Assembly (NCBI GenBank): GCA_938022935.1
Contig: CALIHL010000211.1
Location: forward strand, 1-33,476
DNA length: 33,476 bases
Direction: 5' to 3'
DNA from: an uncultured Saprospiraceae bacterium
GTDB lineage: Bacteria; Bacteroidota; Bacteroidia; Chitinophagales; Saprospiraceae
Within the stretch, counting starts at the first letter, position 1, and the number at the start of each line of letters is the position of its first letter. Shown here piece by piece: positions 3,988 through 23,925 of this stretch. Both the position numbers and the translations under genes were made by a program. Under the pieces are notes generated by a model. It was not told where the DNA came from and searched no databases. It saw only the letters and a list, made by a program, of their open reading frames with translations.

Positions 3988-6045
3988 TCAATTGACTAAA
4001 ACCTCATCAATAAACAACCAGCTCTTGCCGCCAGGATTTGGATGCCATTCTGGATTATTCAATTGGCTCTTCACTTTTATCTTGACATATCTGGCCACTT
4101 CAGGTTCAAATGATTCCGTAAAGTTTTTCATTGAAGGTGCTGGCGCTTTTTCTTCTCTTTCGAAAGAAGTCTCTTTCTGAAACGTATAATTTGAGCCATC
4201 TTTTGAAGTCCAGATCGTCATACCTGTTGGATAAAAGATCCAAGATCCAAATGCATCTAAAGCACTTATGCTTACACTTGATATCTCTTCTGTTTTCCCT
4301 AAGTCTAAGACAGCGTTCATATGCTTCCCTTCAAAGCCAAGCCAGTTACCATCAGTAAAAGCGCTGGTCCCTTTTTTGAAATCAGTGATAGTCTTGCCAC
4401 CTTCACCTTTGTATTTATCAGCTGGCTTGGTATTGAGCGCTACATTTGCGACAGTATACTTAGCTTGTATAAATTGCTTCTCAGCAACCTCGCTACTTCC
4501 CCAACCTTCTTTAGAGCTGATTACTTTTATTAAGGCGGAGTTGTTGATTGTAAAAGGATCAGTGTACTTCAATGATAAACTATCCGGTTCGCTACCATCT
4601 ACTGTGTAGTAGAAGTCAACGTTCTTAAAGTTTAAGTCAAACTCTATCTCTAAAGAATCTTTAAAGATGTCCTTCTTTGCAACGATGAGTGGCGGTCTAA
4701 GGGATGCATCTCCAAAGATGCCATCGTCTTGTTGGAAGGTGATGTCCAGCAGAGGTTTTTGAGTTTGAAGTTGAGCCACTCCTTCAGTTGTTAGTTTAGT
4801 TTGCCAGAGATAAACGGACTGAAGAGCGGGTAACGCGGCTAATGCCTCCACAATATCATCAGTTACGTCGGTATCATAAAGGTTGAGCGTCTTTAGATAC
4901 TTCAACTTGGATAGGCTCTTGACTGTTTCATCTGTGATTTGTGTGCCTTGCAATTGGAGGTTACGCAGGTTCTTTAAAGATGATAAGGAAGAGAGCATCT
5001 TGTCCGTAACATTGGAAAACCCAAGATCAAGAATAGAAACTTGATCATTTACACTTTTTAAGTTTTGTATAGTTGACTTGGTAAGATCTTTTCGATGAGA
5101 TAGACTTACATCTATAAATGGACTTTCTTTAGAAAGTGTATTCGCGACAATACCTGCAGATAATAAAGTTGCCATCTTGGATGCCGTTGGCATTTCTACT
5201 TCAAGACTAAAGTAGTTGTCTTTAGCTTGAGCATATTTGTCAAGTATGGCACTAATCTTTTCTGATGGTTTTAATGATCCTATAGAAGCGTCATATGAAG
5301 CGCCCTCATTGATCCACCATTCTATCAATGATATCTCATCTTCTGAAAGTTGTTTCTTGCTCTTAGGAGGCATGTGTTCTTTCTCCTCCAGTGGCAGATG
5401 AATCCTTTGGATCATCGTACTTTTTTTCGCATCGCCGGCAACATAGATTACTCCGTTTTTACCTCCAAGTGCTAAACGTTCTGGAGATGTCATCATCAAG
5501 TCTCCTTTAGTTTTAGACTCATTGTGACAAGAGACACATTTTTTCTTTAAGATAGGCTGGATGATGTCTTTATAAGCCAGAGCGCTATTGATATCTACAA
5601 TATTGCTGGCTTCGTTTTGCTCTTGGTCACGCCATAAAAATCCATCGCCATGAGTAATGCTTCCTCCCTGATGCCCAGTTATGGTAAGTAACACAATGAC
5701 CAAGCAGAAGGAGGGAAAATATAATTTGCTCTTTTCTGGGCCTTGTTTCTTTTGTAAGAAGTAAAGTGCACCTGACGCGATGGTCATGGCTATAGCCAGA
5801 TATTTATGCTGATCTACAAGTTCTCCTTGGTAGTCGCCTGTTTCTGCAAGGATGTATCCTGTGATACATGTGCCGATTGAGATAACAAACCCAGACAGTA
5901 ATCCCAAGTTTATAGAAACACGATAATCGTCAGTCTTTTTTAATCTTGAGATGATCTCAAGTAGAAATACAAATAGAAATATACCAATCGGCAAATGCAG
6001 AATAACTGGATGAAATCTACCTATGAAGTCAAAGGTCTCTATCAT
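3988..6045 (-). CDS. DUF2231 membrane domain + planctomycete-type cytochrome c motif + LRR + chitobiase-C/discoidin-like C-terminal module
   Basis: N-terminal TM helices (GRFHPVILHLPIGIFLF); CVSCH with HMPP; repeated LRR-like NLRNLQLQGTQITDETVKSL; C-terminal FYYTVDGSEP...WLFIDEVLVN. Confidence 0.85.
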   Translation of the reverse strand: MIETFDFIGRFHPVILHLPIGIFLFVFLLEIISRLKKTDDYRVSINLGLLSGFVISIGTCITGYILAETGDYQGELVDQHKYLAIAMTIASGALYFLQKKQGPEKSKLYFPSFCLVIVLLTITGHQGGSITHGDGFLWRDQEQNEASNIVDINSALAYKDIIQPILKKKCVSCHNESKTKGDLMMTSPERLALGGKNGVIYVAGDAKKSTMIQRIHLPLEEKEHMPPKSKKQLSEDEISLIEWWINEGASYDASIGSLKPSEKISAILDKYAQAKDNYFSLEVEMPTASKMATLLSAGIVANTLSKESPFIDVSLSHRKDLTKSTIQNLKSVNDQVSILDLGFSNVTDKMLSSLSSLKNLRNLQLQGTQITDETVKSLSKLKYLKTLNLYDTDVTDDIVEALAALPALQSVYLWQTKLTTEGVAQLQTQKPLLDITFQQDDGIFGDASLRPPLIVAKKDIFKDSLEIEFDLNFKNVDFYYTVDGSEPDSLSLKYTDPFTINNSALIKVISSKEGWGSSEVAEKQFIQAKYTVANVALNTKPADKYKGEGGKTITDFKKGTSAFTDGNWLGFEGKHMNAVLDLGKTEEISSVSISALDAFGSWIFYPTGMTIWTSKDGSNYTFQKETSFEREEKAPAPSMKNFTESFEPEVARYVKIKVKSQLNNPEWHPNPGGKSWLFIDEVLVN

Positions 6046-6047
6046 TG

Positions 6048-7991
6048 TTATTCAACGATTATTTCATCAATAAATAACCAAGCAGGAGTACCTTTTCCTT
6101 GGTGCCATTCAGGTAGTTTGTTCAAGGCTGTGATAGATATGAACAACTCATCAGTTGTAACATCTTGAAGAGGGACTTCGATATATTTTGATTCTGGAGA
6201 CAATTCCTTTTGAGGTATATCTACTTTTGTTGTATAAGACATGCCATTTATATCAACAGTTACTTCCGTAGGTAAGAATATCCATTGGCTATTGGCAGAG
6301 AGTGCGCTGAGCTTCACTTTGCTTATGTTCTTTTTCTTTTTTAAACTGACATGCACTTGCACAGTGCCGCCTTCAAAACCCATCCATTCTCCATTGCTAA
6401 AGCTGGTAGTGCCTTTGATCATATCAAAAAGAGAGTAGGGGCCACCACCTTGATATTTAGAAGAAGGCTGACGAGATAACGTTACTTCTTTTACATCTTT
6501 TAATTGTGAGGCTTTTGTAAAAGTGACACTTGTTATATCACTTTTCTTGGCATCAGGATGTATAGCAAGCGCTTTGAGCATGCATGATTGATCTATTGAT
6601 ATCTGATTGGTATATTGCTTACTTGAAGTGTTAGGTGTTGTGCCGTCAGTTGTATAGTAGATCTTTCTGCCTGGATAGTCCAAGTCAAAAGTAACAGCTA
6701 TATTTTCTTGAAAAAGAGAAGATGAGAATCGAGGTATAGGCTTAGAAAGTTTGAGTTGATTGGATTGTACAACACTTGGATTAATGACCTTTTTTACCCA
6801 AGCCTTCTTACTATAATTTTCTCCACCTAAGAGCCACTCCATATTGAAAGAAGCGTAATGGATGCCTTCATTATTGCCATGCTCATAAAGCACACCAATG
6901 TCATCATTGTCTTGGATGACGAGATCAGAATAAGCAGACTCACCAGTTCTAACTGTGCGCTTGACCGGCCATGATTGACCTTGGTCGAAACTCATTTTTA
7001 TAGTTAGATTCTCTCTTCTTTTCTTGCTTTCTGGATTAGAGAATAAAATAACCTCCCGTCCTGTAGAAAGTGTATGAGAGATGATGCTCGCTTGGCAGAC
7101 TGGAGAGATCAATGTGCTATCAAAGTAAGTCTCTGACCATGTCGCTCCACCGTCATGACTTTTTGCAACAAGCCTATGTCTCTTTTCTCCGTTTTGCTGT
7201 CTGATGTTTTGCATGATGCTGCCATCTGGTAGTTCTACTGCTATTGATTCGTTAGAGCTTGGTATATCTACGTTTTCTGTAAGCTGCCAAGTTTCGCCAT
7301 GATCATCGCTGTAGAATGCATGTGCTCTATAATCATTGAAGCCTGATTGCGGTTCTCCTTCTGAGTGATTGGCAGGTATAAAGAGTCTTCCTTTATGACT
7401 TCCTTTTTTTAATTGTATCGCATGGCCAGGTGTATTGGCATATGATCTCCAGTCTTCTTTAAAGTTATAGTCTCGGTTTAGATCAGGACGTCGTGGCTTG
7501 TGCACGGATAGAGTGATATCCGTTGGGGCAGACCAAGTGTTGCCAAAGTCCGTACTGGTGATATACAGTATATTTCTCAATCCTTGTCCCAATCTTGTCT
7601 CATGTTCAGATGCGATACCGTTATTATAAACTAAGAATATCCGACCATCCTTGTATCGTGGATCCAAGAGGTCCTCTACGGGAGCTGGATTTCCAGATTG
7701 TAACGATCCGTTGTCTGCAACAACCTTGAGGTTACTCCATGTCTGACCGTTGTCCTTACTGGTTTTTGAAACAATATCCACATCACCAAAGTCATTACAT
7801 CCACTTACGCGTCCTTCTGCAAAAGCAAGGAGATGGCCATTAGACACTTTTATAATAGCAGGTATCCTAAAACAAGCATAGCCGTCTGATCCGTTTCTAA
7901 ATATCGGTTGCTCTTGAAATGACTGTACGTCTTGACTAATACCAACAAAACATACAAGTTGGGCGATAAGAATGTAGAGTACACTTTTCAT
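6048..7991 (-). CDS. GH33 exo-alpha-sialidase with a C-terminal chitobiase-C/discoidin-like module
   Basis: CFRIPAI, AFAEGR, GNPAPV, Asp boxes (SKDNGQTWS, STDFGNTWS, SDDHGETW, SHDGGATWS), RENLTIKMSFDQGQSW, AYSDLVI, VLYEHGN. Confidence 0.92.
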   Translation of the reverse strand: MKSVLYILIAQLVCFVGISQDVQSFQEQPIFRNGSDGYACFRIPAIIKVSNGHLLAFAEGRVSGCNDFGDVDIVSKTSKDNGQTWSNLKVVADNGSLQSGNPAPVEDLLDPRYKDGRIFLVYNNGIASEHETRLGQGLRNILYITSTDFGNTWSAPTDITLSVHKPRRPDLNRDYNFKEDWRSYANTPGHAIQLKKGSHKGRLFIPANHSEGEPQSGFNDYRAHAFYSDDHGETWQLTENVDIPSSNESIAVELPDGSIMQNIRQQNGEKRHRLVAKSHDGGATWSETYFDSTLISPVCQASIISHTLSTGREVILFSNPESKKRRENLTIKMSFDQGQSWPVKRTVRTGESAYSDLVIQDNDDIGVLYEHGNNEGIHYASFNMEWLLGGENYSKKAWVKKVINPSVVQSNQLKLSKPIPRFSSSLFQENIAVTFDLDYPGRKIYYTTDGTTPNTSSKQYTNQISIDQSCMLKALAIHPDAKKSDITSVTFTKASQLKDVKEVTLSRQPSSKYQGGGPYSLFDMIKGTTSFSNGEWMGFEGGTVQVHVSLKKKKNISKVKLSALSANSQWIFLPTEVTVDINGMSYTTKVDIPQKELSPESKYIEVPLQDVTTDELFISITALNKLPEWHQGKGTPAWLFIDEIIVE

Positions 7992-9026
7992 TTATACTCT
8001 CATTAGTTTTATCGGGTAAGACTGACCTGAGTTCCATTGGCAGACATAGATATCTTCATTCTTATCAACGCATACATCATGTGGATGCTTGAATAACTGA
8101 AGAGCTTGATGCATATGGTTTAATTGACCTTTGTTATAAATTGGTGTACTTCCTCCGGGAGCAGAGATGAGCTTGTCATTTTCGTCAAGGATAGATATAA
8201 AGCCAGTGTTGTTACCGCGATCGTTGGACCATATTGTAGCCAAGTAGATGTTATCGCCATGTATGACAGGTCTACAGATGTAAGCTCCAGGGAGATCGAT
8301 CTTAGAGATGTACTCGCCCGACATTGTATACCTTTTAAGTTGGTTTCTATTGCGATCGGTGATCAGTAAGATTGGATCTTTTCCATTTCTCGTATCTATA
8401 CAGATGCCGTGTGCATTGTCTAACGAAGCATCATCTGTACCTCTGCCTCCAAAAGTGTTTTTCAATTTGCCTTTAGCATCATAATGAAGGATATATTGGG
8501 CACCATAGCCATCTGCGACATAGATGTCACCATTGTCGGCTATAGTTGTCTCCGTTGGATCATACTCTTTCGCTTCTTTATAAAGTCCACTTTCTTTTGG
8601 ATATTCCATTGTCATCACAACTCTACCATCCAATGTTGTTTTTACAACTTTGTGAAGGTTTGTATCTGTGATGTATAGAAACTCTTCTCCTCCTTCATCT
8701 CTAAGAGTTAAGCCATGAGCACCTGGAAACTCACTACCCCAGACTTCGATTAAGTTGCCCCCTGAATCATAGATGATGACATTGTTCTTGGTATGATTGG
8801 TCAACATGATGATACGGGCTTTGGCATCGATGACCATTTCGTGACAATCTTTAACCGGATGTGTTCTTGGATTGAGCGCACCCCAGTCTAGGTCTATCTT
8901 GTATTGATGTGATCCATGACCGATTATTAAATCTTTCAAATTATAATCTTTGTTGAGCGGACTCCAATTACTTGATAGTCCAGCAGCTGCTATACCTGTA
9001 TTGATTATAAAGTCTCTTCTCCTCAT
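7992..9026 (-). CDS. NHL-repeat/six-bladed beta-propeller protein, exported by a Tat-like signal
   Basis: MRRRDFIINTGIAAAGLSS signal; repeated YITDTNLHKVVKTTLDG, GDIYVADGYGAQYILHYDAKG, LLITDRNRNQLKRYTMSGEY blades. Confidence 0.8.
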   Translation of the reverse strand: MRRRDFIINTGIAAAGLSSNWSPLNKDYNLKDLIIGHGSHQYKIDLDWGALNPRTHPVKDCHEMVIDAKARIIMLTNHTKNNVIIYDSGGNLIEVWGSEFPGAHGLTLRDEGGEEFLYITDTNLHKVVKTTLDGRVVMTMEYPKESGLYKEAKEYDPTETTIADNGDIYVADGYGAQYILHYDAKGKLKNTFGGRGTDDASLDNAHGICIDTRNGKDPILLITDRNRNQLKRYTMSGEYISKIDLPGAYICRPVIHGDNIYLATIWSNDRGNNTGFISILDENDKLISAPGGSTPIYNKGQLNHMHQALQLFKHPHDVCVDKNEDIYVCQWNSGQSYPIKLMRV

Positions 9027-9027
9027 T

Positions 9028-10506
9028 CTATGCTAATATGTCATTGACAACCTTGCCATGAACGTCGGTCAGGCGGAATCTTCTTCCTTGGTACTTATAA
9101 GTAAACTTCTCATGATCGATGCCCAGGAGATGAAGCATTGTGGCTTGGAAGTCATGTACATGTACAGGTTTGTCTACGATATTATACCCGAACTCATCAG
9201 TTTGTCCATACACCATGCCTGGCTTGATACCTCCTCCTGCCATCCAGATGCTAAAGCATCGTGGGTGATGATCTCGACCATAGTTAGTATCTGTAAGTGC
9301 ACCTTGTGAGTAATTAGTTCTTCCAAACTCTCCTCCCCAGATGACCAAGGTATCGTCCAACATACCTCTTTGTTTGAGATCCATGATCAGTGCAGCAGAG
9401 GCTTGGTCAACATCTTTGGCTTGCTTAGCTATTGCTCCGGGTAAGTTGTCATGATGATCCCAACCCATGTGGTACAATTGTATAAACTTGACATCTTGTT
9501 CTGCAAGTCTTCTTGCCAGTAGGCAGTTGGCTGCAAAGGTGCCCGGTTGTGTAGAATCAGGGCCGTACATTTTATATATATGGTCTGGCTCATTTTCTAT
9601 GTTCATGACATCAGGTACAGAAGTCTGCATTCTGTATGCCATCTCATATTGAGCGATGCGACTGCTGATCTCAGGATCTCCAAACTCTTGTAGTTGCTGA
9701 TCATTGAGGGCTGCGACCTTGTCTAACATAGACCTTCGGCTCTCTCTGGTAACACCGATTGGGTCATTGAGATAGAGTACAGGGTCTTTGCCTGATCTAA
9801 ACTGTACACCTTGATGGAGAGAATGTAAAAAGCCATTGCCCCATAATCGAGAGTATAGGGGTTGCCCCTGTGGACGTCCAGTTCCTCTTGAAAGAAGTAC
9901 AGTGAAAGATGGTAAGTTTTGATTATCACTTCCTAAGCCATAGCTCAGCCAGGATCCTATACTTGGGCGTCCTGGTTGTTGTGATCCAGTTTGGAAAAAT
10001 GTAATCGCTGGATCGTGGTTGATCGCTTCTGTATACATCGAGTTGACGATGCAGATCTCATCTGCTACTTTAGCTGTGTAGGGTAGAATCTCACTTATAT
10101 AAGCGCCACTCTGTCCATGTTGACCAAATTTAAATATTGATCCAGCCAAAGGAAAAGAATCTTGACCTGAAGTCATGCCAGTTAGTCGTTGTCCTTTTCT
10201 GATAGACTCTGGGAGATCCTCACCCATTCGCTTTACAAGCGTAGGTTTATAATCGAATAATTCTAATTGTGATGGCCCACCGCTTTGAAAAAGATAGATG
10301 ACTCGCTTGGCTTTTGGGGCTAAGTGCATATGATCCAATATCCCTCTTGAGCTTTCAGCTATCCCATCTGTTCCTGGGGAAGACATACACCCTGGTCCAA
10401 AAAGGGAAGCCAGTGCAGCGGTGCCTATGCCAACACTGCTCTTTGATAAAAAGGATCTCCTGTTCATCAAGTAAGCTTGCTCGTCTAATATCTTTTTATG
10501 TCCCAT
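9028..10506 (-). CDS. DUF1501 family protein (sulfatase/alkaline-phosphatase-superfamily-like), Tat signal
   Basis: [24 protein letters not shown] Tat signal; [69 protein letters not shown]. Confidence 0.92.
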
Positions 10507-10507
10507 A

Positions 10508-12856
10508 TCAACCTCTGGTTATCGTCTCATCAAGATTCATGATCGCACTTGCAACAGAAGCGTATGCTGCAAATACAGAAGTGTCGACATCGATTCTATC
10601 AATTGTAAAGTTTCCAATTGATAGATACTCTTCAGCCGCTTTTTCATTGTTAGTATACCTTTCTAACTCTTCGTCATAATACGATCTAAGCACACCAACT
10701 TCTTCTTGGTTTGGAGTTCTGGAGGTGGCTAGTTGGAACATATATGAGATTCTATCTTCAGTGGAATTGCCCATTTTATCTATGCTACGCGCTGCTAACA
10801 TGCGAGCGGCTTCTACTATCTGAGGATCGTTAAGCAGAACAAGTGCTTGTAGTGGTGTGCTCGTGTTTTGTCGCTTGACAGTGCAAAGGTCACGAGAAGC
10901 AGCATCAAATGTCATCATGCTCGGTGGTGGAACTGTACGCTTCCAAAAAGTATAAATGCTGCGCCTGTATAGGCCTTCTTCGCTGTCTTCTACATACTTG
11001 GCTGTACTTCCTCCTCCGCCACCGGTGGTCTCTTGCCAGAGACCTTTTGGCTGGTATGGTTTTACACTTGGACCTCCAACTTCTGCCACTAAGAGATCGC
11101 TTATTTTGAGTTCATGATCTCTTATCATTTCTGCGTGAAGTCTTAGTCTAGTGGCTCTTGCCAGTAATCTATTTTCAGGATCTAATTCTAAAAGATCCTG
11201 ATCTATATTGGTCGCTTGCTGATAGGTTGCTGACATCATCATATATTTCAATATCTCTTTTATGTTCCAGCCTTCATTTTGAAATTTTAAAGCCAAGTGA
11301 TCCAAGAGTTCTGGATGTGAGGGTAGTGACCCTTGATTGCCAAAGTCATAAGATGAAGCGACAATACCTGTCCCAAATAATTGTTGCCAATATCTATTGA
11401 CTGCAACTCTTGCTGTCAACGGATGGTCTGGTGAAAACAGCCATTTTGAAAGTCCAAGTCTATTAGATTCGTATTCTTTTCCAAATTGTAATATGCTCTC
11501 AGGGGTATTGGGCTGGACTGGTGTTGTTGGTTTGTCGTAAGCACCTCGGTTGAGTATGTGAGCTTGCCTTGGTTTGTCCATATCTTTCATCACCATATAG
11601 GTGATCTCACCGACAGAATCCAAGGTGTTTATAAAGTCTACTTTTTCTTTGATAACTTCATCTGTTAAAGTAATCGTAGGCTCTGCTTTTTGCCCACCAC
11701 CAACAAATCCTTCTTCAGGCACATTGTTGAAAAAACTATAAAGTTCGTAGTAGTTTTTTTGTGAGAGCGGATCGTATTTGTGATCGTGGCACTTTGCACA
11801 TTCCATGGTTAGTCCTAAGAACGCTGTCGCAAATGTATTGGTTCGATCAGATACATACTCAACTCGGTATTCTTCAGGGATGACACCACCTTCATTGGTG
11901 ATTTTGTGATTGCGATTAAAGCCGGTTGCAATCACTTGCTCTAAGCTTGCATCAGGCAACATATCACCAGCGATTTGCCAAGTCACAAACTCATCAAAAG
12001 GAAGATTCTTTTGATATGCATGTATCACCCAGTCTCTCCATGGCCAATTAAACCTTTCAAAGTCATCTTGGTATCCATTGGTATCAGAGTATCTTGATAT
12101 GTCAAGCCAGTCAGCTGTCATGCGTTCGGCATAAGCAACAGTAGATAGCAGATGATCTATCACTTTTTCAAAAGCGGTTTCAGTCTCATCATTGACGAAA
12201 GCTTCTACTTCTTCTATGCTCGGAGGTAATCCCGTGAGATCAAAGTATGCTCTACGGATCAGGTGTTCTTTTTTTGCCTTGGATGAAGGTTGTAGGTTAT
12301 AAGACTCTATTTTGGAGAGCACATAATTATCAATGTCATTTTCAACCCAAGTTTGATTGTTGACTGATGGTGATGATGACTCTGCTGGTTTTATAAATGC
12401 CCAATGATCCGTCCATTCTGCTCCTTGATTGATCCACTTTTTTAGTATTTCCTTTTCTGTTTCACTAAGCGACAGATTTGATTCTGGAGGTGGCATAACG
12501 TCATCCATGTTGTCTGTGTAGATCCTTTGGATCAAGTGACTGCTATCAGCGCTTCCAGCTATGATTGCATATCGATCTTTGTTTTCACCAAGTCCAGCAA
12601 AAGCGAATTCTTTTAAGTGAAAAGCTAAGTCAGCTTCTCTCGTGCCTTCATCTGGACCATGACAAGTAAAGCATCTATCAGATAGGATAGGCTTAACATG
12701 AAAGTTGAAGTCAACTACATCCGGTACCACTTCTCCTAATACACCAGCTCTGGAGTTATCATCAAGAGATTTACTATTGTTGGTGCAACTTGCCAATGCC
12801 CAGATTAGTAGGATAATGGCAACACTAACTTTTATATGTAGTCCTTTTTCGATCAA
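10508..12856 (-). CDS. PSCyt1-DUF1549-DUF1553 (PSD1-type) cytochrome c domain lipoprotein
   Basis: Lipobox [13 protein letters not shown] with VMPPPES; second Cxx[73 protein letters not shown]. Confidence 0.93.
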
Positions 12857-12866
12857 TGTTTTTCTA

Positions 12867-15758
12867 TTATACGTTTAAGATATCGTTCTTTTTTATAAAA
12901 GCCACAATTTCGCTGATATACCCAAAAGCTATGGCTATAGATGTATCCGCTGCCCCGTAATAGATAGCTATGCGATCACCATCTTCGATAGAGGCGCAAG
13001 GGAAGATAACATTGGGTACATCACCAGATTGTTCGTACTGAGCTGCTGGAGATAAGAGGTAAGCCCCCGAGCGATATAAGACAACTGAAGGGTCATCTTC
13101 TTTTAGTATAGATCCGCCCATCGCATATCTAAACCCGTTACAAGTTTGTATAACACCATGATAAAGTATCAACCATCCTTCACTGGTTAATACGGGCACT
13201 GCTCCTGCACCAATCTTTTTAGATTGCCATGCACTTACTTCAAAGTCTGAGACCTTCATGACGATCCTATGTTCGCCCCAGTATTTCATGTCAGGACTAT
13301 AGCTGACATAGATATCACCAAAGGCTGTGTGACCATTATCGCTGGGTCTGCTGAGTAAGGCGTATTTCCCATTTATCTTTTTGGGAAACAAGACACCGTT
13401 CCGATTATATGGGAGGAAGGCGTTCTCACATTGAAAGTAATCTTTGAAGTTGTAAGTATAAGCGACTCCGATGGTTGGGCCGTGATAACCATTGCACCAT
13501 GTCACCCAGTAGGTGTCGTCGATCTTTGTCACACGAGGGTCATACTTGTAGTCCGAGTGTAGCATGTTAGTATTGCCGGCTTGCATTTTTATGGGGTCAT
13601 GCTCGATCTCCCAATGGATGCCATCTTTACTGAATCCCGTATGGATATTCATCCTTACATTCTTATCATCACATCTGAACACACCGGCATAACCATCTTG
13701 ATATCTTACAACTGCACTGTTAAATATGCTGTTAGAAGAAGGTATGTCATAACGGCCAACGATAGGGTTATTCTTGTATCGCCATACTACATCTGCATCT
13801 TTAGAGTGTCGGTCTTGCCATGGCATGTGCGGTGCGTTCTTTGTAGTACCTGATATTGCTGCTGATACTATGGTTGCAGCGTTTAAGGCGTGCGTGTCTC
13901 GGTTTGCACTTGTGGGTTCGTTCATAGGAACAATTGAAAGTGTTGAAAGTTTGTCGTACCAGTTTCTTTTTAAAAAGATGGTTGCTATTGCAAATGTTAT
14001 AAATGCGATAATGAAACTGCTACCGTTTTTTAGAATTAGAAAAATCGGCATCACAGTAAGTGTAGTCTGCCATGCTATGCCAACTAGAACATTGATGCTA
14101 TCTTGTTTTAGATTTGGGTTTGCTTTAAACGAAGAATTAGATTTTTGAATGTGGTTGACTACAGGTTTCCAAAATCCCCAAGGGTATGATATTTTATAAA
14201 AGTCAGCTAAGACGTTTATGTCTTGAGGTTCGGTCATTAGTGTGCCCAGTATAGATCCAGCAAATGAAGCTAAAAGTATAGCAGGGAATAAATAGATAGC
14301 AGAAACATCTGGTAATAATGCCGGTAGTAAAGTCGATGCGATCAGTCCTGCAAGCATACCGAAGAAATAACCATATCCGTTGAATCTCCACCATAGCCAT
14401 TTTAAAACATTTGCGGCAGCGTAACCGCCATACAAAGCAGAAGTAATCCAAAGGGTTAGAGAGTTGATAGATTCAACAAAAAAACCAAAGAATAAACCAA
14501 TAACAACAATACCCAAAGAAGAATAATAGCTATACCTGACATAGGTTCTGTCTGTTGCATTAGGGTTGATATACTTTTTATAAAAGTCATTGACAACATA
14601 GGCTGGTGCTGCATTGATAAAAGCTGCGAATGTACTCATAAAAGCGGCTAATAGCCCAGCCAGTAAGAGTCCCTTGAAACCGATTGGTATAAATCGATCA
14701 ATTGCAATTGGAAGAATGGTTTCAAAGTCAATATTAGAACCCATGCTTTCAAATTCTGGGGTGAGATAAACCACAGCCAGAACACCAAAACCAGCGATCA
14801 TAAAGTATCTTGGAAAGTACAATGCTAACATCGTAAGTCCGCTCATCTTCGCTGACTCCATCGGTGTCTTAGTTGACAATACTCTTTGCATGTCATAGCT
14901 CGGCACGGGGCCAGCCATACTTGCAAAAACACCTTTAAACAACATCATCATAAATAGATAACCGAAGAGTTGAAAACCATCAGTTTCTATTTTAGTATTG
15001 ACAGCATCTAGATAGCCTGTCCAGTCTAAGTCCAGCTGCCAAGAAAAGAACAAATCCTCCCACCCTGATGGGACAGCATTGATGATCTGATCTCTAGAAA
15101 CAGAAGTAAGTGCTATTATGCCAACAACGACGCAAGAGATTGTCATGATAAAGAACTGAAGCACTTCAGTAAGTACCACGCTGTACATGCCACCGGTGAT
15201 CACGTAGACAGTTGTGATTAGAATAATAAGTAGGGCATAGGAGTGCTCCGAGGTAAGATTGATAAGCTCAGTTGTTACTGATAAATCCCAAGGGAAAAAT
15301 ACAGTTGCGAACTTGCCAATGCCAACGAAAAAGTAAGCTATAAATCCAAATACACTGATGATGGCAAAGAAAGTGACAATCATATGTGATAGACGCGCCC
15401 CTCTATCATTGCCAAATCTGTGGGTGATCCACTCGGCACCTGTAAGTACGTTGGACCTCCTAAGCCATATCGCCATGAAGATCATGATGAAGACTTGGTT
15501 CCATACCGGCCACAGCCATGGAAGCCAAGTGCTTTGCGCTCCGTAGACAAAAAACAATGTCACCAGCCACATGGTACCGGAGACATCGAACATGCCAGAA
15601 GCATTGGACAGTCCTAAGTAATACCATGAGATCTCATTGTCTCCGAGGAAGTAAGAGCGTAAACTTTTAGAAGCTTTCTTTGACACCCAAAAGCCAAGGC
15701 AAACTGTGATGATTAGGTAACACAGTATAATGCCAAGGTCTAATGGATGAAAGTGCAT
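12867..15758 (-). CDS. Sodium:solute symporter (SSS) fused to a C-terminal GH130-like glycosidase/phosphorylase domain
   Basis: One uninterrupted 963 aa ORF. N-terminus is SSS ([29 protein letters not shown]). From about residue 645 it is GH130-like ([95 protein letters not shown]). Confidence 0.88.
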
Positions 15759-15831: not shown

Positions 15832-17343
15832 TTAATTTACATCCCACCATACTGGCGCAGACATATATGTCGAGAAATCATTGCTCAATCCTTGAGCTGT
15901 TTTAGCAGCTTCAAATGGCTCTCTTCCTGATTCACCTGCAGGATAAGAAAGTCTCTTGGGTATCTGTCCGTTTGTTACATTGCCAGGATAGTTTACGGGC
16001 GTAAGAGCTGGAAAGCCAGATCTTCTCATATTAGAGAAAGCTTCGTATTCATTTAAGAATGTTGCCATCCAATACTCGTATCCTATTTGTTCCATAGCGT
16101 TGCCTGCATCAAAAGCATTTGCCGCAAGGTATCCGTCGATAGCCTCTTGAGGGGCAGCTAATGAAGCATCATAGTGAGCCCACATACCCATGGCATTAGC
16201 AACACCTTGATTGAAATAAGCTTCAGCGTCACCACCAGTCCATCCCCTCATAGAAGCCTCTGCTGCCAAGAGCTGTGCTTCTCCACTGGTCATGAACATC
16301 ATCGGAGAAGAAACAGAAACTATCATTGGATTGATTCTGTCAAAATCATTGATATTAGTACCCGTAGGATTATCAGCTATCGTTGTCTCATCAAGACCAT
16401 TAGGGAGACCATTATGGCCACCACCGTTCTCTGGAGTAACACCGATAATATCTAATCTTGGATCAGCTCTTTCCAATAGCCCATTAACTAATGTTGCGCT
16501 CAATCGAGGACAATCATCTCCAAAACCATTGCTCTTATCTAAAACTTCTCCCAATCCATTACGATTGACACCAGCGGGTCCATTTGTATGTTCTAAAAAG
16601 GCGTCATCACTATTATCTGTCATAATACCTCCAGAGATTGCCTTGCCAGCAAATGATTGCGCTGTTCCTGCATCAACTTCTGAAACTCTCATAGCTAATC
16701 TAAGCATCATTGAGTTGCCAAACTTTCTCCATTTATCAACATCACCGCCAAAGATAAGATCAGCACTTCCGAAGCCGCCCGAGCCAAGTTGGCCAACTGC
16801 AGATTCTAATTCACTAAGCATATCCATATAGATGGATTGTTGAGAATCGTACTTTGGGAAGTCTATCCCAGCAATCGATCCAAGACCAGCTTCGCTGTAA
16901 GGGATATCTCCATACAAGTCAGTTAGTCTATGGAAGATAACAGTGCGCCAGATCCTTGCCATGCCTAACATTGTCTGATCACCAACTTCTCCTTGTTCAA
17001 GTGTGTTAATCAGATCTTGCATGTCCTTCACTTGCTCTGTATATGCACGGTCAAAGAGCGAAGAGTTATAACCTCCATTAAATGTGTATTTGTCTCCATT
17101 CCAATAGCCACAAAGTGCGGCCATGTGTTGGTTGATCATCGAAGAGTAGATTAAGCCTGCTCTCCAGTTTTCATATCGTCCACCAGAAGTTCTAAGTTGT
17201 ACTCTGGAAAATTGAAATCCAGGGTCTATATCTATTGCAACTGTTGGGTTTGTATTTATTTCTGCAAAGTTGTCGTCACAAGAAGTTGTGAAGAGAAACA
17301 TCGAAATAAGCAGTACACCGATTTTATATGATATTTTATTCAT
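15832..17343 (-). CDS. SusD/RagB-like nutrient-binding outer-membrane lipoprotein
   Basis: MNKISYKIGVLLISMFLFTTSCDDNFAEINTNPT lipoprotein signal; GMARIWRTVIFHRLTDLYGDIPYSEAG; WRKFGNSMMLRLAMRVSEVD; YEAFSNMRRSGFPAL. Confidence 0.95.
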   Translation of the reverse strand: MNKISYKIGVLLISMFLFTTSCDDNFAEINTNPTVAIDIDPGFQFSRVQLRTSGGRYENWRAGLIYSSMINQHMAALCGYWNGDKYTFNGGYNSSLFDRAYTEQVKDMQDLINTLEQGEVGDQTMLGMARIWRTVIFHRLTDLYGDIPYSEAGLGSIAGIDFPKYDSQQSIYMDMLSELESAVGQLGSGGFGSADLIFGGDVDKWRKFGNSMMLRLAMRVSEVDAGTAQSFAGKAISGGIMTDNSDDAFLEHTNGPAGVNRNGLGEVLDKSNGFGDDCPRLSATLVNGLLERADPRLDIIGVTPENGGGHNGLPNGLDETTIADNPTGTNINDFDRINPMIVSVSSPMMFMTSGEAQLLAAEASMRGWTGGDAEAYFNQGVANAMGMWAHYDASLAAPQEAIDGYLAANAFDAGNAMEQIGYEYWMATFLNEYEAFSNMRRSGFPALTPVNYPGNVTNGQIPKRLSYPAGESGREPFEAAKTAQGLSNDFSTYMSAPVWWDVN

Positions 17344-17361
17344 GTTATACTTATTTTGAAA

Positions 17362-20300
17362 TTAGAATTTAAGCTTAAGGTTCAAGCCAAATGATCTTGT
17401 CACTGGAACACCAAACATTTCAAGTCCTTGTCCGTTACCTGTTGTGTAGGTAGATTCTGGATCTATGTTTGTCGTGTTCTTAGAAAGGATCAGTAGGTTT
17501 CTACCCGCAAATGATAATGAGCCTGATGCAAAAGGAAGTTTTTCTGTAAGACTACTTGGCAAGTTATAGCTAACTATAATCTCACGTAGTTTTACAAAAT
17601 TTGCATTTTCTACAAATTGCTCAGATATACCAAATGCTATACGTTGGTAGTAATCTTCAACGTTTTCTGAAGAGACAGCTCCTATTCCTGATTCTCTTCC
17701 TTCAAGCGTTTCTTGATGCAAACCTCTGAAGTATCCATATGCATTCGTTGCATTATAGATCATTGCTCCTCTCTTCATGTCTAATAAGAAGCTAGCTCCA
17801 AAGTTTCCAAAAGTAAAGCTGTTGTTGATTCCAATTGTTGTTGGGTGTACACCAGTTCCAAATGTTCTAAGTGCTCCTTGAACGGGCAATCCATTTTCAT
17901 CTACCGTTATATTACCACTGCCATCTCTTTCATATTCAAAAGCCATGACTTGGCTATATGGAAGTCCTTCTACTAAGTGGATATATGCATTACGTGTACG
18001 ACTCTCTTGAAGTCTAATCTCCTCTCCATCATTTTCTGGAGTTAAAAGACTCTCAACATTATTCGTATTGTGTGCTAAATTAAGACCTAAAGTCCAAGCA
18101 AAGTTGTTATTGACGACAGGCTGCACTTCTATAAATGCCTCAATACCTTTGTTAGTTATTTTTCCAACATTGACAGTCTTAGAACCAAATCCTGAAGCGG
18201 CTGATATGGAAGCACTCAGTATACCATCTGTTGTTTCTCTCGTATAGTATGCAAGATCAGCATGAACTTTTCCTTTGAACATTCTGACATCTACACCTAC
18301 TTCAAGTTCAGTATTTGTTGATGGCACAAGTCCTAATGGTGGTACAGAGTTATTGTTGATGCCTCCAAGTGGTTGGCCTAAATGACCTTGGTCAAATATG
18401 CCATAGGTCAATCCTAACTGGTACGGATTAGTGGATCCTCCGACCTGTGCCCATGATGCCCTTACTTTTGCAAAGTCAACTACGCTGGGTAATTCTAAAC
18501 CATTGGCAAGATCATATGCTAATCCAACTGATGGATAGAATATTGAGTTTTTAGATTCTGCACCGTTTGGATCCGTTAAAGCAGAGAACCAATCCTGTCT
18601 ACCTGTAACAGTAAGGTACAACGCGCTATTGACAGAAAATTCTGCCTGGCCAAAAACTGAGTTTACTTGAAATTGTGTAAATCCATATGATACACTTTGA
18701 TTTGCTAAGTTTCTAAGTGTATGAAGGAATGGAACATTGAAGTTGCTACCGCCACCACCTAAGAGTTCGTTAGAGTTCTTTTGTTGGTTGCCTCCCACCA
18801 ATAGGTTGATGCCAAAATTATCATTAATGTCTTTTATGTAATTAAGAGTTGCCTCAAGATTTACTTCTTGTACATTTCTATTTGATTCGCTTAGCTGACC
18901 TAATGTGCTGAAAGCTGTACCATAGGGTGTCAAGTTTCTTCTTGATTCTGTGAAGCGATCAATTCCAACTTTACCACCAAGCGTCAGACCATCTATGATT
19001 TCATAACCTACATTGATGTTCCCGAATACACGGTTTTTCCTATTGTTTGCTTGAAATTGATGAGCAGCCCAATATGGGTTGGTCACAAATACATTATCAT
19101 TAAATTGTAACTCTGCTCCTGCGGCATTGGCTCCTGGCTTGTTAGGATCACCAATCATATCTTCTATATTGATGCTCGGAGGAAGTGACCATGCAGTATA
19201 ATTTGCATTTCCTGGGGAGTCAGAAAGTCGTGGTCTATTGTTTACTCCTTCAATTACAAAAGATCCACTGATGCCAGCAGTAAATTTGCCATGAGCGATA
19301 CTTGTGTTAGTTGAAAAGGTTTTTCTATCCAAGTCTGAGTTAGGTAGAATTCCCTTGTTATCTAAGTTGGTAAATGAAAATCTAAAATTGTGATTATCAC
19401 CACCTCCTGATAATGAGAGTGAATTTGTAAATGTTGAACCACCTCTATAAAAACGTCCAAGATTGTCACCGGTTGCTGAGTAAGGTCTTGACTCACCGTC
19501 AAATTGAATAACCGAACTTCCATCAAGTGGAGCGCCCCATGCATATAATCCTTGTGCAAATGCTTCTTCAACGGTAGATGGCTTAGCGCCATTTCGTCCA
19601 TGGCCATACTGTTGTTGGAAGTCATAGTTGTCGATGATGCTCTCTGCTTGAAAGTTACTATTGAACTCTACATTGAGTCCTCCTTTTTTTCCTTTTTTAG
19701 TTGTGATTAGTATGACGCCGTTATCTGCTCGATAGCCGTATAAGGCACCTGCAGTATTACCTTTAAGTACAGTCATGGACTCTACATCATCGGCGTTTAC
19801 ACTACTGAGGCCATCGCCCCAATCATTTCCACCCCACATACCTGCAGATCCAAGGTTGTCGTTGTTGATCGGTACTCCATCGACAACGATGAGCGGTTGG
19901 TTGTTACCACTGATGTTGCTGTTACCACGGATAACGATTCTACTTGAACCACCAGCTCCTGTCGCTGGGTTGCTTACATTCACACCTGCTACTTTGCCAG
20001 CCAGTGCATTTCCAATGTTGACTTCTTTAGCTGTGGCAACACTCGAACCATCGAGTTCTCCAACAGCGTAAGCCAATGCTCGTTTTTTTCTTCCGATACC
20101 CAATGCAGTTACGACGACTTCATCAAGGTATTCTCCTTCTACCATCGCGATATCAATGTAGGATTGGTTGCCTACAGCGATCTCTTGACTTTGAAATCCA
20201 GAATAGGATACGACGAGTATGCCGCCGTCTTGTACATCAAGAGAAAAGGTACCATCGATATCAGATATCGTTCCGTTACCGGTTCCCTTTTCTAAGATGT

Positions 20301-20418
20301 TAACCCCGATGAGCACATCGCCATCGGCAGTTTTGACTATCCCAGTTACTGTCTTTTGACCAAACAATGATGCGGTCATAAAGAGTAGTGGGATAATAAG
20401 TTTAGATAGTTTTAACAT
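17362..20418 (-). CDS. SusC/RagA-like TonB-dependent transporter
   Basis: Carboxypeptidase-D-like N-terminus (VTGIVKTADGDVLIGVNILEKGTGNGTISDIDGTFSL); DEVVVTALGIGRKKRALAYAV; plug IVIRGNSNISGNNQPLIVVDGVPINN; C-terminal RSFGLNLKLKF. Confidence 0.96.
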   Translation of the reverse strand: MLKLSKLIIPLLFMTASLFGQKTVTGIVKTADGDVLIGVNILEKGTGNGTISDIDGTFSLDVQDGGILVVSYSGFQSQEIAVGNQSYIDIAMVEGEYLDEVVVTALGIGRKKRALAYAVGELDGSSVATAKEVNIGNALAGKVAGVNVSNPATGAGGSSRIVIRGNSNISGNNQPLIVVDGVPINNDNLGSAGMWGGNDWGDGLSSVNADDVESMTVLKGNTAGALYGYRADNGVILITTKKGKKGGLNVEFNSNFQAESIIDNYDFQQQYGHGRNGAKPSTVEEAFAQGLYAWGAPLDGSSVIQFDGESRPYSATGDNLGRFYRGGSTFTNSLSLSGGGDNHNFRFSFTNLDNKGILPNSDLDRKTFSTNTSIAHGKFTAGISGSFVIEGVNNRPRLSDSPGNANYTAWSLPPSINIEDMIGDPNKPGANAAGAELQFNDNVFVTNPYWAAHQFQANNRKNRVFGNINVGYEIIDGLTLGGKVGIDRFTESRRNLTPYGTAFSTLGQLSESNRNVQEVNLEATLNYIKDINDNFGINLLVGGNQQKNSNELLGGGGSNFNVPFLHTLRNLANQSVSYGFTQFQVNSVFGQAEFSVNSALYLTVTGRQDWFSALTDPNGAESKNSIFYPSVGLAYDLANGLELPSVVDFAKVRASWAQVGGSTNPYQLGLTYGIFDQGHLGQPLGGINNNSVPPLGLVPSTNTELEVGVDVRMFKGKVHADLAYYTRETTDGILSASISAASGFGSKTVNVGKITNKGIEAFIEVQPVVNNNFAWTLGLNLAHNTNNVESLLTPENDGEEIRLQESRTRNAYIHLVEGLPYSQVMAFEYERDGSGNITVDENGLPVQGALRTFGTGVHPTTIGINNSFTFGNFGASFLLDMKRGAMIYNATNAYGYFRGLHQETLEGRESGIGAVSSENVEDYYQRIAFGISEQFVENANFVKLREIIVSYNLPSSLTEKLPFASGSLSFAGRNLLILSKNTTNIDPESTYTTGNGQGLEMFGVPVTRSFGLNLKLKF

Positions 20419-20474
20419 AGTTACTAATGTTTAATATTTCACTTGATTGAGCCAATGTAACAACTTTGTTGGAC

Positions 20475-20494
20475 TTTGTGTGCGTGCACACAAA
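20475..20494. promoter_or_regulatory. Palindromic operator candidate for the LacI-type regulator
   Basis: TTTGTGTGC-GT-GCACACAAA, a perfect 9+9 bp inverted repeat between divergent susC-like and lacI-like genes. Confidence 0.7.
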
Positions 20495-20543
20495 AATATT
20501 ATTCCTATATTTATCGCCAGAACATAATATTATTTCTTAAGTC

Positions 20544-21614
20544 ATGGCTCGGATAAAAGATGTAGCACTGAAAGCAGGGGTGTCAGTTGGGACAGTGGAT
20601 AGGGTGATTCATGACCGAGGGAAAGTAGCTAAGGATGTAGAGCTTAAGGTGAAGGAAGCGATCAGGTTGCTTAACTATCAGCCTAACTTGGCAGCAAGAA
20701 GTCTTGCTAAGAAGGCAAATCACAAGATTGCTATTGCCCTACCAGACCATAAGTCCGATGAGTTTTGGGCCGATCAAAATAAAGGAATACATAGAGCACT
20801 TCACAGTGTTAGAAACTTCGGATTCTCAGGTGATATCTTAAAGTTTAATGATCAAAAGAAAGGAGACTTGCTTAGTCTCAGAGTGTCAATCTTCAACGGG
20901 GATTATGAAGCACTTTTGATAGCGCCAACAATAAAAAGTGAGGCATTAGAGATGATGAATCTTTGCGAAGAAAAAGGTATGCCTTACGTGCAGATTAATT
21001 CTTTGATCGAAAGAGAGGAAGATCAATCGCTGGGTTATGTTGGTCAGGATTCGTTTAAGGCAGGATCATTAGGTGCCAAATTGTTGGATTTTGGAACTCC
21101 CAAAGACGCTAAGTTGGCACTGCTTCATATGGAGTATGATGTGGAAAATAGTACTCATTTGTTGGCTAAAGAAGCTGGATTTAAAAAGTACTGGACGGAC
21201 TTAAATGTGGAAAACAAGGCCGTTTATCTACAAATAGCTGATGTCGAACAAAGTGATAAACTAAAGAGCCAGATTATCCAATTGCTCGAAGATTTTCCAA
21301 AGTTGAATGGGTTATTTATTACAACAAGTAGAGTTCATCTGATAAGTGATGTATTAATGCAGCTTGGTAGAGAAGACATTGCTTTAGTGGGGTTTGATTT
21401 GGTCCAAGAGAACATTGAAGCACTTAAGAAATATCAGAAGCTTTTTCTAATTAATCAAAATCCATCTTTACAAGGATACTATGGTGTGATGAGAATATTT
21501 GATCACTTTTTAAAAAATAAAAGCGTCAAAGAATCCAAATATCTTCCACTGGGTATTGTGACACTTGAGAATGTCGATAACTATCTCTACATGAAAGATA
21601 GAGATAACATCTAA
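20544..21614 (+). CDS. LacI-family transcriptional regulator
   Basis: MARIKDVALKAGVSVGTVDRVIHDRGKVAKDVELKVKEAIRLLNYQPNLAARSLAKK HTH and hinge, followed by a periplasmic-binding-like domain. Confidence 0.93.
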   Translation: MARIKDVALKAGVSVGTVDRVIHDRGKVAKDVELKVKEAIRLLNYQPNLAARSLAKKANHKIAIALPDHKSDEFWADQNKGIHRALHSVRNFGFSGDILKFNDQKKGDLLSLRVSIFNGDYEALLIAPTIKSEALEMMNLCEEKGMPYVQINSLIEREEDQSLGYVGQDSFKAGSLGAKLLDFGTPKDAKLALLHMEYDVENSTHLLAKEAGFKKYWTDLNVENKAVYLQIADVEQSDKLKSQIIQLLEDFPKLNGLFITTSRVHLISDVLMQLGREDIALVGFDLVQENIEALKKYQKLFLINQNPSLQGYYGVMRIFDHFLKNKSVKESKYLPLGIVTLENVDNYLYMKDRDNI

Positions 21615-21643: not shown

Positions 21644-22804
21644 CTATGATCTACTTTTTATAATGCTAGCAAGCTCTTCTTTCTGATAGTCTTTTAAGTC
21701 ATGATATGAAAACAAAGTGAAACCTTTTGATCCACCATCATAAGAACTTTGGATAGCTTTAGTAAGAGCACCTTCTTCTTCCATATGTGGTAAAAAGAGT
21801 CCACTGTATATCGGCTTTTTGTGGTTGAGTCGGTCAAGTGCTTTAGTTGTTTCCTTTCCAATCCATGCTATGTCTTCATTATAAAAACCATGGTAGAGCA
21901 TAGGTAAGAAGGCGTCTAAATCAAACTTATGCCATTGTTGTCTTACGCTTTCCCAATTAGGAAAAACTGCGGCTGTTATGGTCTTGTTCTTAGCTTTAGC
22001 TGCCGGGACGAGATAATCATTGACCAGACCAACAACTGCGTCATATCTAAACTGATACCAGTCTTTATCATTTGCTGGATCTTCGATATCCATTGGGTCT
22101 ATGCCTGTCTGTTCTTTAAATGCACTTCTACAAGTCTCGCAGTAGCAGTAGTCATACTCTGGATATTCTTTGTCTTGTACTATGTCATACTTCGGTTGTA
22201 GCGCTTCTGCGAGAATGACATCAGGTAGTCGCACATAATCTAAGTGGACGCCATTTAACTCAGAGATGGAAGCAAGTGCCTCGACTCTCTTTTGTACAAA
22301 TTCTCTGACCTCAGTTTTACGTGGACATAGAAACTTGTAGTAGTTGACATAAGCGGGGGCAGTATCAGCACTTTGCCCTGCTCGATTAACCGCATACCAA
22401 TCTGGATGATCCGCTATAATTCTTGGATTGTTGCAAGGCATCGTCCACATCCATGCATGAAGTTCAAGTCCCGCTTGATGCGCCAATGGAATCATGCGCT
22501 CCAATAGAGGGAGTTCAGTCTCATAGTCTGGGATATTGAAGAGAGCTTTGTTGCTGGCAAAGATTTGCGGAAGCACAGCATCTATGCCTAAAGCCTTCAT
22601 ATCAGCAAATTCTGCTTTGAGTTCGTCATCAGTTGCTCTAGGAGATGGTCTGTGCCATATCCAATATTCTGGAAGCCCTTTATATTCTGATGCTATCTCT
22701 TGTGATACCTCTGCTAACTTAGGTTCATTGCATCCAACTTGAGCACCAATTGATAAGCTAACACCTGTGCCCGCTATATATTTTATAAAGTCTTTTCTTT
22801 TCAA
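21644..22804 (-). CDS. GHL10/DUF187-like putative glycoside hydrolase, lipoprotein or exported
   Basis: WIWHRPSPRATDDELKAEFADMKALGIDAVLPQIF; GLELHAWMWTMPCNNPRIIADHPDWYAVN; LNGVHLDYVRLPD; N-terminal MKRKDFIKYIAGTGVSLSIGAQVGC. Confidence 0.8.
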   Translation of the reverse strand: MKRKDFIKYIAGTGVSLSIGAQVGCNEPKLAEVSQEIASEYKGLPEYWIWHRPSPRATDDELKAEFADMKALGIDAVLPQIFASNKALFNIPDYETELPLLERMIPLAHQAGLELHAWMWTMPCNNPRIIADHPDWYAVNRAGQSADTAPAYVNYYKFLCPRKTEVREFVQKRVEALASISELNGVHLDYVRLPDVILAEALQPKYDIVQDKEYPEYDYCYCETCRSAFKEQTGIDPMDIEDPANDKDWYQFRYDAVVGLVNDYLVPAAKAKNKTITAAVFPNWESVRQQWHKFDLDAFLPMLYHGFYNEDIAWIGKETTKALDRLNHKKPIYSGLFLPHMEEEGALTKAIQSSYDGGSKGFTLFSYHDLKDYQKEELASIIKSRS

Positions 22805-22809
22805 TGTCT

Positions 22810-23925
22810 CTACTTTTTCGTTGATCTAATTTCTAGCTTTCCCTTATCATTAAGCGTAAGTATCTCTTCTTTTTTGCCTTGTACACTGATGTGAAACCCA
22901 TTTTCGCTAACATCTATGGATGGCTCAAATGAATAATCTGATATATCGACAGTTGGAAGTGAGACTTGGCTGGCCCTACATGTTATGTTGCTCTTATGAC
23001 ATTCTTTTAGTTGATAGTAGATTTGCCACAATCCCCATTTTACTTTTTCAATTTCTCTTTCTTTAAATTGAACACCAGCTTCTTTTTCAAATTGAACATA
23101 ACCCCATAACTCTGGTTTGTGCATATTGATATAACCAATAGGAGACCAAACCCAGTTGGCTTCAGGTAGTGGTCTGTTCTTCTTTTTGACTTTAGTATAT
23201 CTGTCGTCTTCGATGCTCATAGTCCAGTCAACTCTTGAGAAGTTGATCCGCCATTGGTCGCCAGTTTCTGGTATCCCGCCTCGAACCATGAGATCTTCAA
23301 ATGTCTGCCAAGGAATAGCAACTTCTACGCTCCAATACTTGTCTTGGTCATCGGGCTGGTTAATAGATCCCTCAATGTGGACGGCGGACTTGATACCTCT
23401 GATGTCATAATTCATCAGATAGTTTCTTCCATCATCTATATAGTATGGATAGAGCATAAGCAGATCCCAGATAGCATTGAAAGCGTTCATCTCAAATTCT
23501 AAATAGTTGTGTCCATCACCATCTGGATCTATGAAGATCTCAAAATCATCGTCATGGTACATGATAGCATCTCTTTCTGTCAAAGTCGCCCATATGTGTG
23601 GATCGTACAGGATGGCTCCAACATAGAAGTACTGGCTGTCCCAGGCCATTTTGGCTTTGGTCTGAAGCGAAGGAATTGATTTTAGTGAGCCTTCGATATC
23701 AACAAAATCTTCTGTCCATGATGCGGACGCCCATTCCTTTGATTCTAATTTTCCATCTATTATTATGGGCTCTTCTATAAATTGACATATGTATCTCTTG
23801 GGATGAAAAGGAATCGGGTGCTTGTATTCTAATTCAGATGAAGGCTTATCAAGAGATGATTGCGCCTCAACCTTAAGTATTGCGAACAAGCATAATACAA
23901 ACCAATACACCCACACCTTTCTCAT
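22810..23925 (-). CDS. CBM9-like carbohydrate-binding protein, secreted
   Basis: IDGKLESKEWASASWTEDFVDIEG..., AKMAWDSQYFYVGAILYDPHIWATLTERDAIMYHDDDFEIFIDPDGDGHNYLEFEMNAFNAIWDLL pattern; signal peptide. Confidence 0.85.
   Translation of the reverse strand: MRKVWVYWFVLCLFAILKVEAQSSLDKPSSELEYKHPIPFHPKRYICQFIEEPIIIDGKLESKEWASASWTEDFVDIEGSLKSIPSLQTKAKMAWDSQYFYVGAILYDPHIWATLTERDAIMYHDDDFEIFIDPDGDGHNYLEFEMNAFNAIWDLLMLYPYYIDDGRNYLMNYDIRGIKSAVHIEGSINQPDDQDKYWSVEVAIPWQTFEDLMVRGGIPETGDQWRINFSRVDWTMSIEDDRYTKVKKKNRPLPEANWVWSPIGYINMHKPELWGYVQFEKEAGVQFKEREIEKVKWGLWQIYYQLKECHKSNITCRASQVSLPTVDISDYSFEPSIDVSENGFHISVQGKKEEILTLNDKGKLEIRSTKK

Follow-up and report, generated by a model that had tools for sequence, protein, structure and literature searches.

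UhgbMP is a hexameric beta-1,4-mannopyranosyl-chitobiose phosphorylase of the GH130 family, and UhgbMP and BT1033 have been described as soluble stand-alone enzymes. We take R150, R168 and K212 of UhgbMP to be its three phosphate ligands. D104 of UhgbMP is the proposed proton-relay residue (PMC4599007; PMC10619541). GH130 hydrolases are without the three basic phosphate ligands, and Glu replaces Tyr in them (PMC4599007). SSS proteins have 13–15 helices with the N-terminus outside, and the SSS-STAC sensor kinases CbrA and CrbS are single proteins made of an SSS part and a C-terminal domain that lies in the cytoplasm (PMC7918813). For Muricauda sp., it has been proposed that disaccharides are handled first by a symporter and then by a GH130 phosphorylase, as separate proteins and with beta-mannan as the substrate (PMC9860051). 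SSS and GH130 proteins are also encoded by adjacent operon pairs in N-glycan-type loci of Bacteroidota (e.g., Aquimarina, Flavobacterium, and Marinifilum).

In this study, a stretch of 33,476 nucleotides from an uncultured Saprospiraceae bacterium (contig CALIHL010000211.1; hereafter the window) was analyzed. The same two proteins as in the split operon pairs were found in the same order, but in one gene instead of two, and the GH130 domain was tethered to a transporter, unlike UhgbMP and BT1033. The closest described SSS fusions are sensor kinases (PMC7918813); the C-terminal part of CbrA and CrbS is a histidine kinase, while that of the window protein is a catabolic enzyme. The open-access literature searched yielded no account of an SSS-GH130 fusion. 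Neither the two domains nor their pairing in operons is unusual; what is new, within the material searched, is their union in a single chain.

The fused gene and its GH130 domain

The fused gene encoded 963 aa from an ATG, with no internal stop. The Pfam SSF profile matched residues 36–471 (E 7.8e-26, 91.3 bits, cut-off 22.8), and the five-bladed propeller profile Glyco_hydro_130 matched residues 640–956 (E 6.2e-62, 209.8 bits, cut-off 26, profile positions 3–319 of 320). The TIGR00813 score of the SSS part was 104.9, below its own cut-off of 184. The fused domain was the only GH130 match in the source genome. The initial annotation had described an uninterrupted frame holding an SSS part and a complete GH130 domain from about residue 645, with the YDPRV acid region kept. 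This description was borne out: both Pfam profiles scored above their cut-offs, the alignment with UhgbMP began at residue 643, and YDPRV was located at residues 739–743. The features of the locus are listed in Table 1.

Table 1. Features of the fused gene and its surroundings in the window.
Feature	Position	Strand	Evidence
Fused SSS symporter-GH130 gene	12867..15758	-	One open frame, 963 aa; Pfam SSF and Glyco_hydro_130; same fusion in L112 and L113
SSS/SLC5 symporter domain, residues 1–604	13947..15758	-	Pfam PF00474; SGLT/vSGLT sequence matches; 15 predicted TM helices; Foldseek SGLT1/2
Linker, residues 605–644	13827..13946	-	Predicted disordered, pLDDT 30–38; in-frame indels within the genus; 32–47% amino acid identity among the three fused species vs 79–94% in the flanking domains
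Met612 codon in MNEPxSA	13923..13925	-	Kept in 3/3 fused species, although the rest of the linker varies
GH130 domain (GH130_2 type), residues 645–963	12870..13826	-	59% identity to UhgbMP over 318 residues; Pfam PF04041; Foldseek 4udk, TMt 0.75
D740, proton-donor Asp (= UhgbMP D104) in YDPRV	13539..13541	-	Alignment; invariant in 14/14 rows covering the domain
R786, R804, K848 (= UhgbMP R150, R168, K212), presumed phosphate-binding	13215..13403	-	Alignment; invariant in 14 rows
Sialidase-like (BNR) protein, same gene run	6048..7991	-	PDB sialidase 1eur, E 3.7e-45, residues 25–389; Pfam BNR_2
SusD-like lipoprotein, directly upstream of the fusion	15832..17343	-	Pfam PF12771, E 7.7e-83
SusC-like TonB-dependent receptor	17362..20418	-	Pfam Plug and CarbopepD_reg_2; 65% to L086 SusC
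LacI-family regulator, divergent	20544..21614	+	Pfam LacI and Peripla_BP_4
GHL10 putative glycosidase	21644..22804	-	Homologue adjacent in L086
CBM9-like protein	22810..23925	-	Homologue between SSS and GH130 in L086

The closest solved structure to the GH130 domain was that of UhgbMP (PDB 4udg, E 4.8e-133, residues 643–960), which has the same catalytic Asp and basic residues, and UhgbMP was also a Foldseek match of the domain. Y739 and D740 corresponded to Y103 and D104 of UhgbMP, and Y739, H810, and D938, like D740, did not vary across the 14 alignment rows covering the domain. The initial annotation had named loss of essential GH130 residues as grounds for rejecting its reading, but D740, Y739, R786, R804, and K848 were all intact. 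Since the basic residues and the Tyr were kept, unlike in GH130 hydrolases, the domain is predicted from its sequence to be a phosphorylase and not a hydrolase.

Maintenance, origin and possible role of the fusion

Two more genomes of the genus carried the same fusion, again in a single open frame: that of G001 (L003/L112) encoded 946 aa with 90% identity to the window protein, and the other (L004/L113) 960 aa with 80% identity. An assembly or sequencing artefact, such as the sequencing error joining two genes considered in the initial annotation, was rejected because these two genomes carried the same open frame. In a fourth congener (G004), the contig end cut the locus within the SSS part, and the locus was absent from two congeners examined. 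Overall identity of the window fusion to its two counterparts was about 79–90%. Among the three fused species, SSS residues 1–530 were 83–94% identical and the GH130 domains 79–89% identical, and dS was high or saturated. The linker of about 40 residues was variable, yet its length changes were all in frame. Therefore, the frame of the junction has been kept over real evolutionary distance, and the SSS-GH130 fusion is genuine and maintained.

Homologous loci with both parts were compared in other organisms (75 split pairs), and each had separate ORFs for SSS and GH130. SSS was followed by GH130 with a gap of ≤279 nt in 71 of the 75 pairs. Both genes shared a frame in 56 of the 75, often with one stop between them, a count biased upward by a search that favors in-frame pairs. 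Scans covering 398 genomes of the family, 395 of the class, and 396 of the phylum, each set drawn from a larger group, revealed single-ORF fusions in this genus alone. In the tree of the SSS domain, the three fused proteins fell into a single clade (support 1.0), whose sister was L086, a split Saprospiraceae locus of the N-glycan type (0.992). Therefore, one fusion event occurred in the genus: a conserved operon pair of SSS and GH130_2 from the N-glycan-utilisation loci of Bacteroidota became one gene in the genus ancestor.

Frames of more than 1000 aa reported in the phylum scan (G900, G984, G696, G485, G972, G944, and G987) were split, the reported length having been read through stops. A 1325 aa frame in G200, apparently the same record as L086, was also split. 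In-frame read-through rows in the alignment of fused and split proteins were used as alignment aids only. A reversed pair, GH130 first and then SSS, was seen in a Planctomycetota MAG (L109:8010-11062).

The best explanation, which we regard as likely, is that the ancestral SSS/GH130_2 operon pair fused into a protein for Na+-driven import followed by tethered phosphorolysis of Man-GlcNAc; within it, we infer the cytoplasmic side, the substrate, the activity, and any kinetic benefit of tethering. The disaccharide would be imported by Na+ symport through the SSS part, and the tethered GH130 would cut it with phosphate at the entry point, giving mannose-1-phosphate and GlcNAc. Phosphorolysis at entry would save ATP and prevent back-flow, and tethering could concentrate the enzyme locally and pull uptake along. 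Against this explanation, the confidence of the structural model was moderate, the window had no GH92, GH20, or NagB beside the fusion, the G001 locus had no SusC/SusD, and a deletion in the last helix could flip the side of its GH130. The confidence given to the alternatives overlaps with that in the main explanation because they differ from it only in parts.

The most serious alternative, to which we give somewhat less than an even chance, is a neutral or translational-coupling fusion. The stop between two co-transcribed genes would have been lost, the halves would work as before, and the disordered 40-residue linker would let GH130 act as a free enzyme, so that tethering had no kinetic role. 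Few mutations would be needed, given the shared frame and single stop of many split pairs, in a sample biased to in-frame pairs, and the linker was disordered and weakly constrained. However, all three species have retained the open frame although dS is high and the linker has acquired in-frame indels, so the fusion has not been undone.

Beyond import followed by tethered phosphorolysis, a single-chain "transporter-phosphorylase", in which Na+-driven uptake is coupled directly to phosphorolysis and the symporter passes Man-GlcNAc from its exit to the active site of the tethered GH130 as a phosphorolytic counterpart of group translocation, appears doubtful. It is unlikely that internal initiation, e.g., at Met612, also gives a free GH130 and therefore two products. 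Met612 followed closely on the position at which stand-alone SSS proteins finish, in the place corresponding to the start of stand-alone GH130 genes, and its motif was kept in the variable linker of all three species. However, Met612 may be only a fossil, the relic of a former GH130 start codon, and the other internal Met, Met645, was not conserved in the fused species. If tethering in the main explanation speeds flux, the fusion would be a rare ion-driven sugar importer joined to the enzyme committing its cargo, and engineered uptake systems could take it as their natural model.

Substrate

The neighbors of the split pairs (n = 72) were GH92 (26), CBM9-like (10), Asparaginase_2 (7), GHL10 (7), GH20 (4), NagB, a glucosamine-6-phosphate isomerase (3), PIG-L (3), and GH18 (2). 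Of the 83 SSS loci that had a GH130 of this type, 70 also had GH92 in the flanks covered. The gene order of L086, the closest split locus, was SusC-SusD-GHL10-NagB/PIG-L-SSS-CBM9-GH130-ROK-three GH92. SusC, SusD, GHL10, and CBM9 were common to L086 and the window, and the sialidase-like gene was extra in the window. Split relatives had the composition taken to mark an N-glycan locus, i.e., SusC/SusD with GH92, GH18/GH20, asparaginase or PNGase; the window had SusC/SusD and a sialidase. No GH92, GH20, or NagB was found next to the fusion within the window; GH92, NagB, and Asparaginase_2 genes were found elsewhere in the source genome, GH92 on another contig.

The GH92, GH20, GH18, Asparaginase_2, and NagB genes beside the split homologues point to N-glycan catabolism, and by this analogy the substrate is probably the N-glycan core disaccharide Man-beta-1,4-GlcNAc. 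The initial annotation had proposed phosphorolysis of an unspecified glycoside; this disaccharide is the likely substrate instead.

A beta-mannan fragment (Man-Glc or mannobiose) is an improbable substrate in place of the N-glycan core. GH130_2 enzymes, including RaMP2 and TM1225, also phosphorolyse mannooligosaccharides. Early-branching SSS relatives (L119:5239-9523, also L148 and L149) were followed by a GH130 of about 400 aa, in several with an AGE-type epimerase as well, as would be expected if beta-mannan were used. However, the fused clade nested with loci having GH92 and GlcNAc-catabolism genes, mannanase families were absent from the 25 commonest neighbor families of the split pairs, and the best enzyme match was UhgbMP. 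The early branches with these GH130 proteins and epimerases suggest beta-mannosides as the substrates of the entire SSS subfamily.

To our knowledge, this SSS subfamily is widespread in Bacteroidota but uncharacterised. The fusion can serve as a "Rosetta stone" linking it to beta-mannoside import, and it gives a substrate prediction, Man-beta-1,4-GlcNAc, that is testable for many genomes. In relatives without this GH130 type (L115, L089, L096, L099, L101, and L105), the same SSS had a gene for a DUF4434 protein nearby, which followed it immediately in L115:10783-11724 and L089:9820-10761. DUF4434 may be an alternative catabolic partner of SSS in these relatives.

Topology and gene neighborhood

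An AlphaFold model, which the initial annotation had proposed as a check, was predicted with AF2 from 39 sequences at moderate confidence (mean pLDDT 68.8). The 15 helices counted were 5–29, 45–82 (broken), 83–106, 119–154, two within 170–219, 262–282, 299–331, 361–397, 403–425, 431–455, 462–481, 487–508, 550–576, and 579–604. Helix 83–106 was poorly modelled in the main AF2 model and helical in another prediction. The last hairpin (550–576/579–604) had high pLDDT and was followed by the disordered linker. The hydrophobic pair called extra in the initial annotation is instead the final helical hairpin normal for this SSS subfamily; stand-alone SSS homologues also have it and stop shortly afterwards, at about residue 605–630. 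All 15 helices were also found in every split relative aligned, with the hairpin conserved.

By Foldseek, the SSS part matched SGLT1/2 and SiaT (E ≤ 1e-11), consistent with the LeuT-type fold common to the SSS/SLC5 sugar symporters vSGLT, SGLT1, and SiaT. At the Na2 site on TM8, Ser375/Thr376 aligned with the serine pair of vSGLT at the hydroxyl position; Ser375 was Gly in several split homologues. Compared with SGLT1 and vSGLT, the fused protein had one more helix and a C-terminal enzyme, and identity in the structural alignment was only 16–19%.

The N-terminal side of the window protein was taken from the SSS family (PMC7918813). With 15 helices and the N-terminus outside, the C-terminus with GH130 should be cytoplasmic according to the model. 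The predicted inner loops 27–55, 100–125, 283–311, and 382–412 were rich in Lys/Arg, and the predicted outer loops 226–263 and 331–347 were acidic. A GH130 domain on the periplasmic side is very unlikely. In SGLT-type SSS proteins, 14 helices place the C-terminus outside, and the G001 fusion was without most of helix 15. However, the window protein and all aligned split relatives had 15 helices, the hairpin was conserved with high pLDDT, phosphorolysis needs phosphate, and the product Man-1-P would be useful only inside. The cytoplasmic GH130 of the initial annotation is thus favored by the helix count, with G001 as the case against it. In G001, the last TM helix was short of 11 residues, an apparent 33-nt deletion, and GH130 was conserved. 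Hence the topology may tolerate the deletion, the assembly may contain an error, or the function of the locus may be shifting.

G001 was also without LacI, SusC, and SusD between GHL10 and the fusion (L112:8533-9306, compared with window 15832-21614). After the fusion, window 7992-12856 encoded PSCyt1/PSCyt2/PSD1 cytochrome-type, DUF1501, and signal-peptide NHL-repeat proteins in the same direction, and these genes were conserved in G001 and partly in G005. A single ORF at window 3988-6045 combined a DUF2231 membrane region, a PSCyt1 cytochrome, leucine-rich repeats, and Fn3-associated and F5/8 type C domains.
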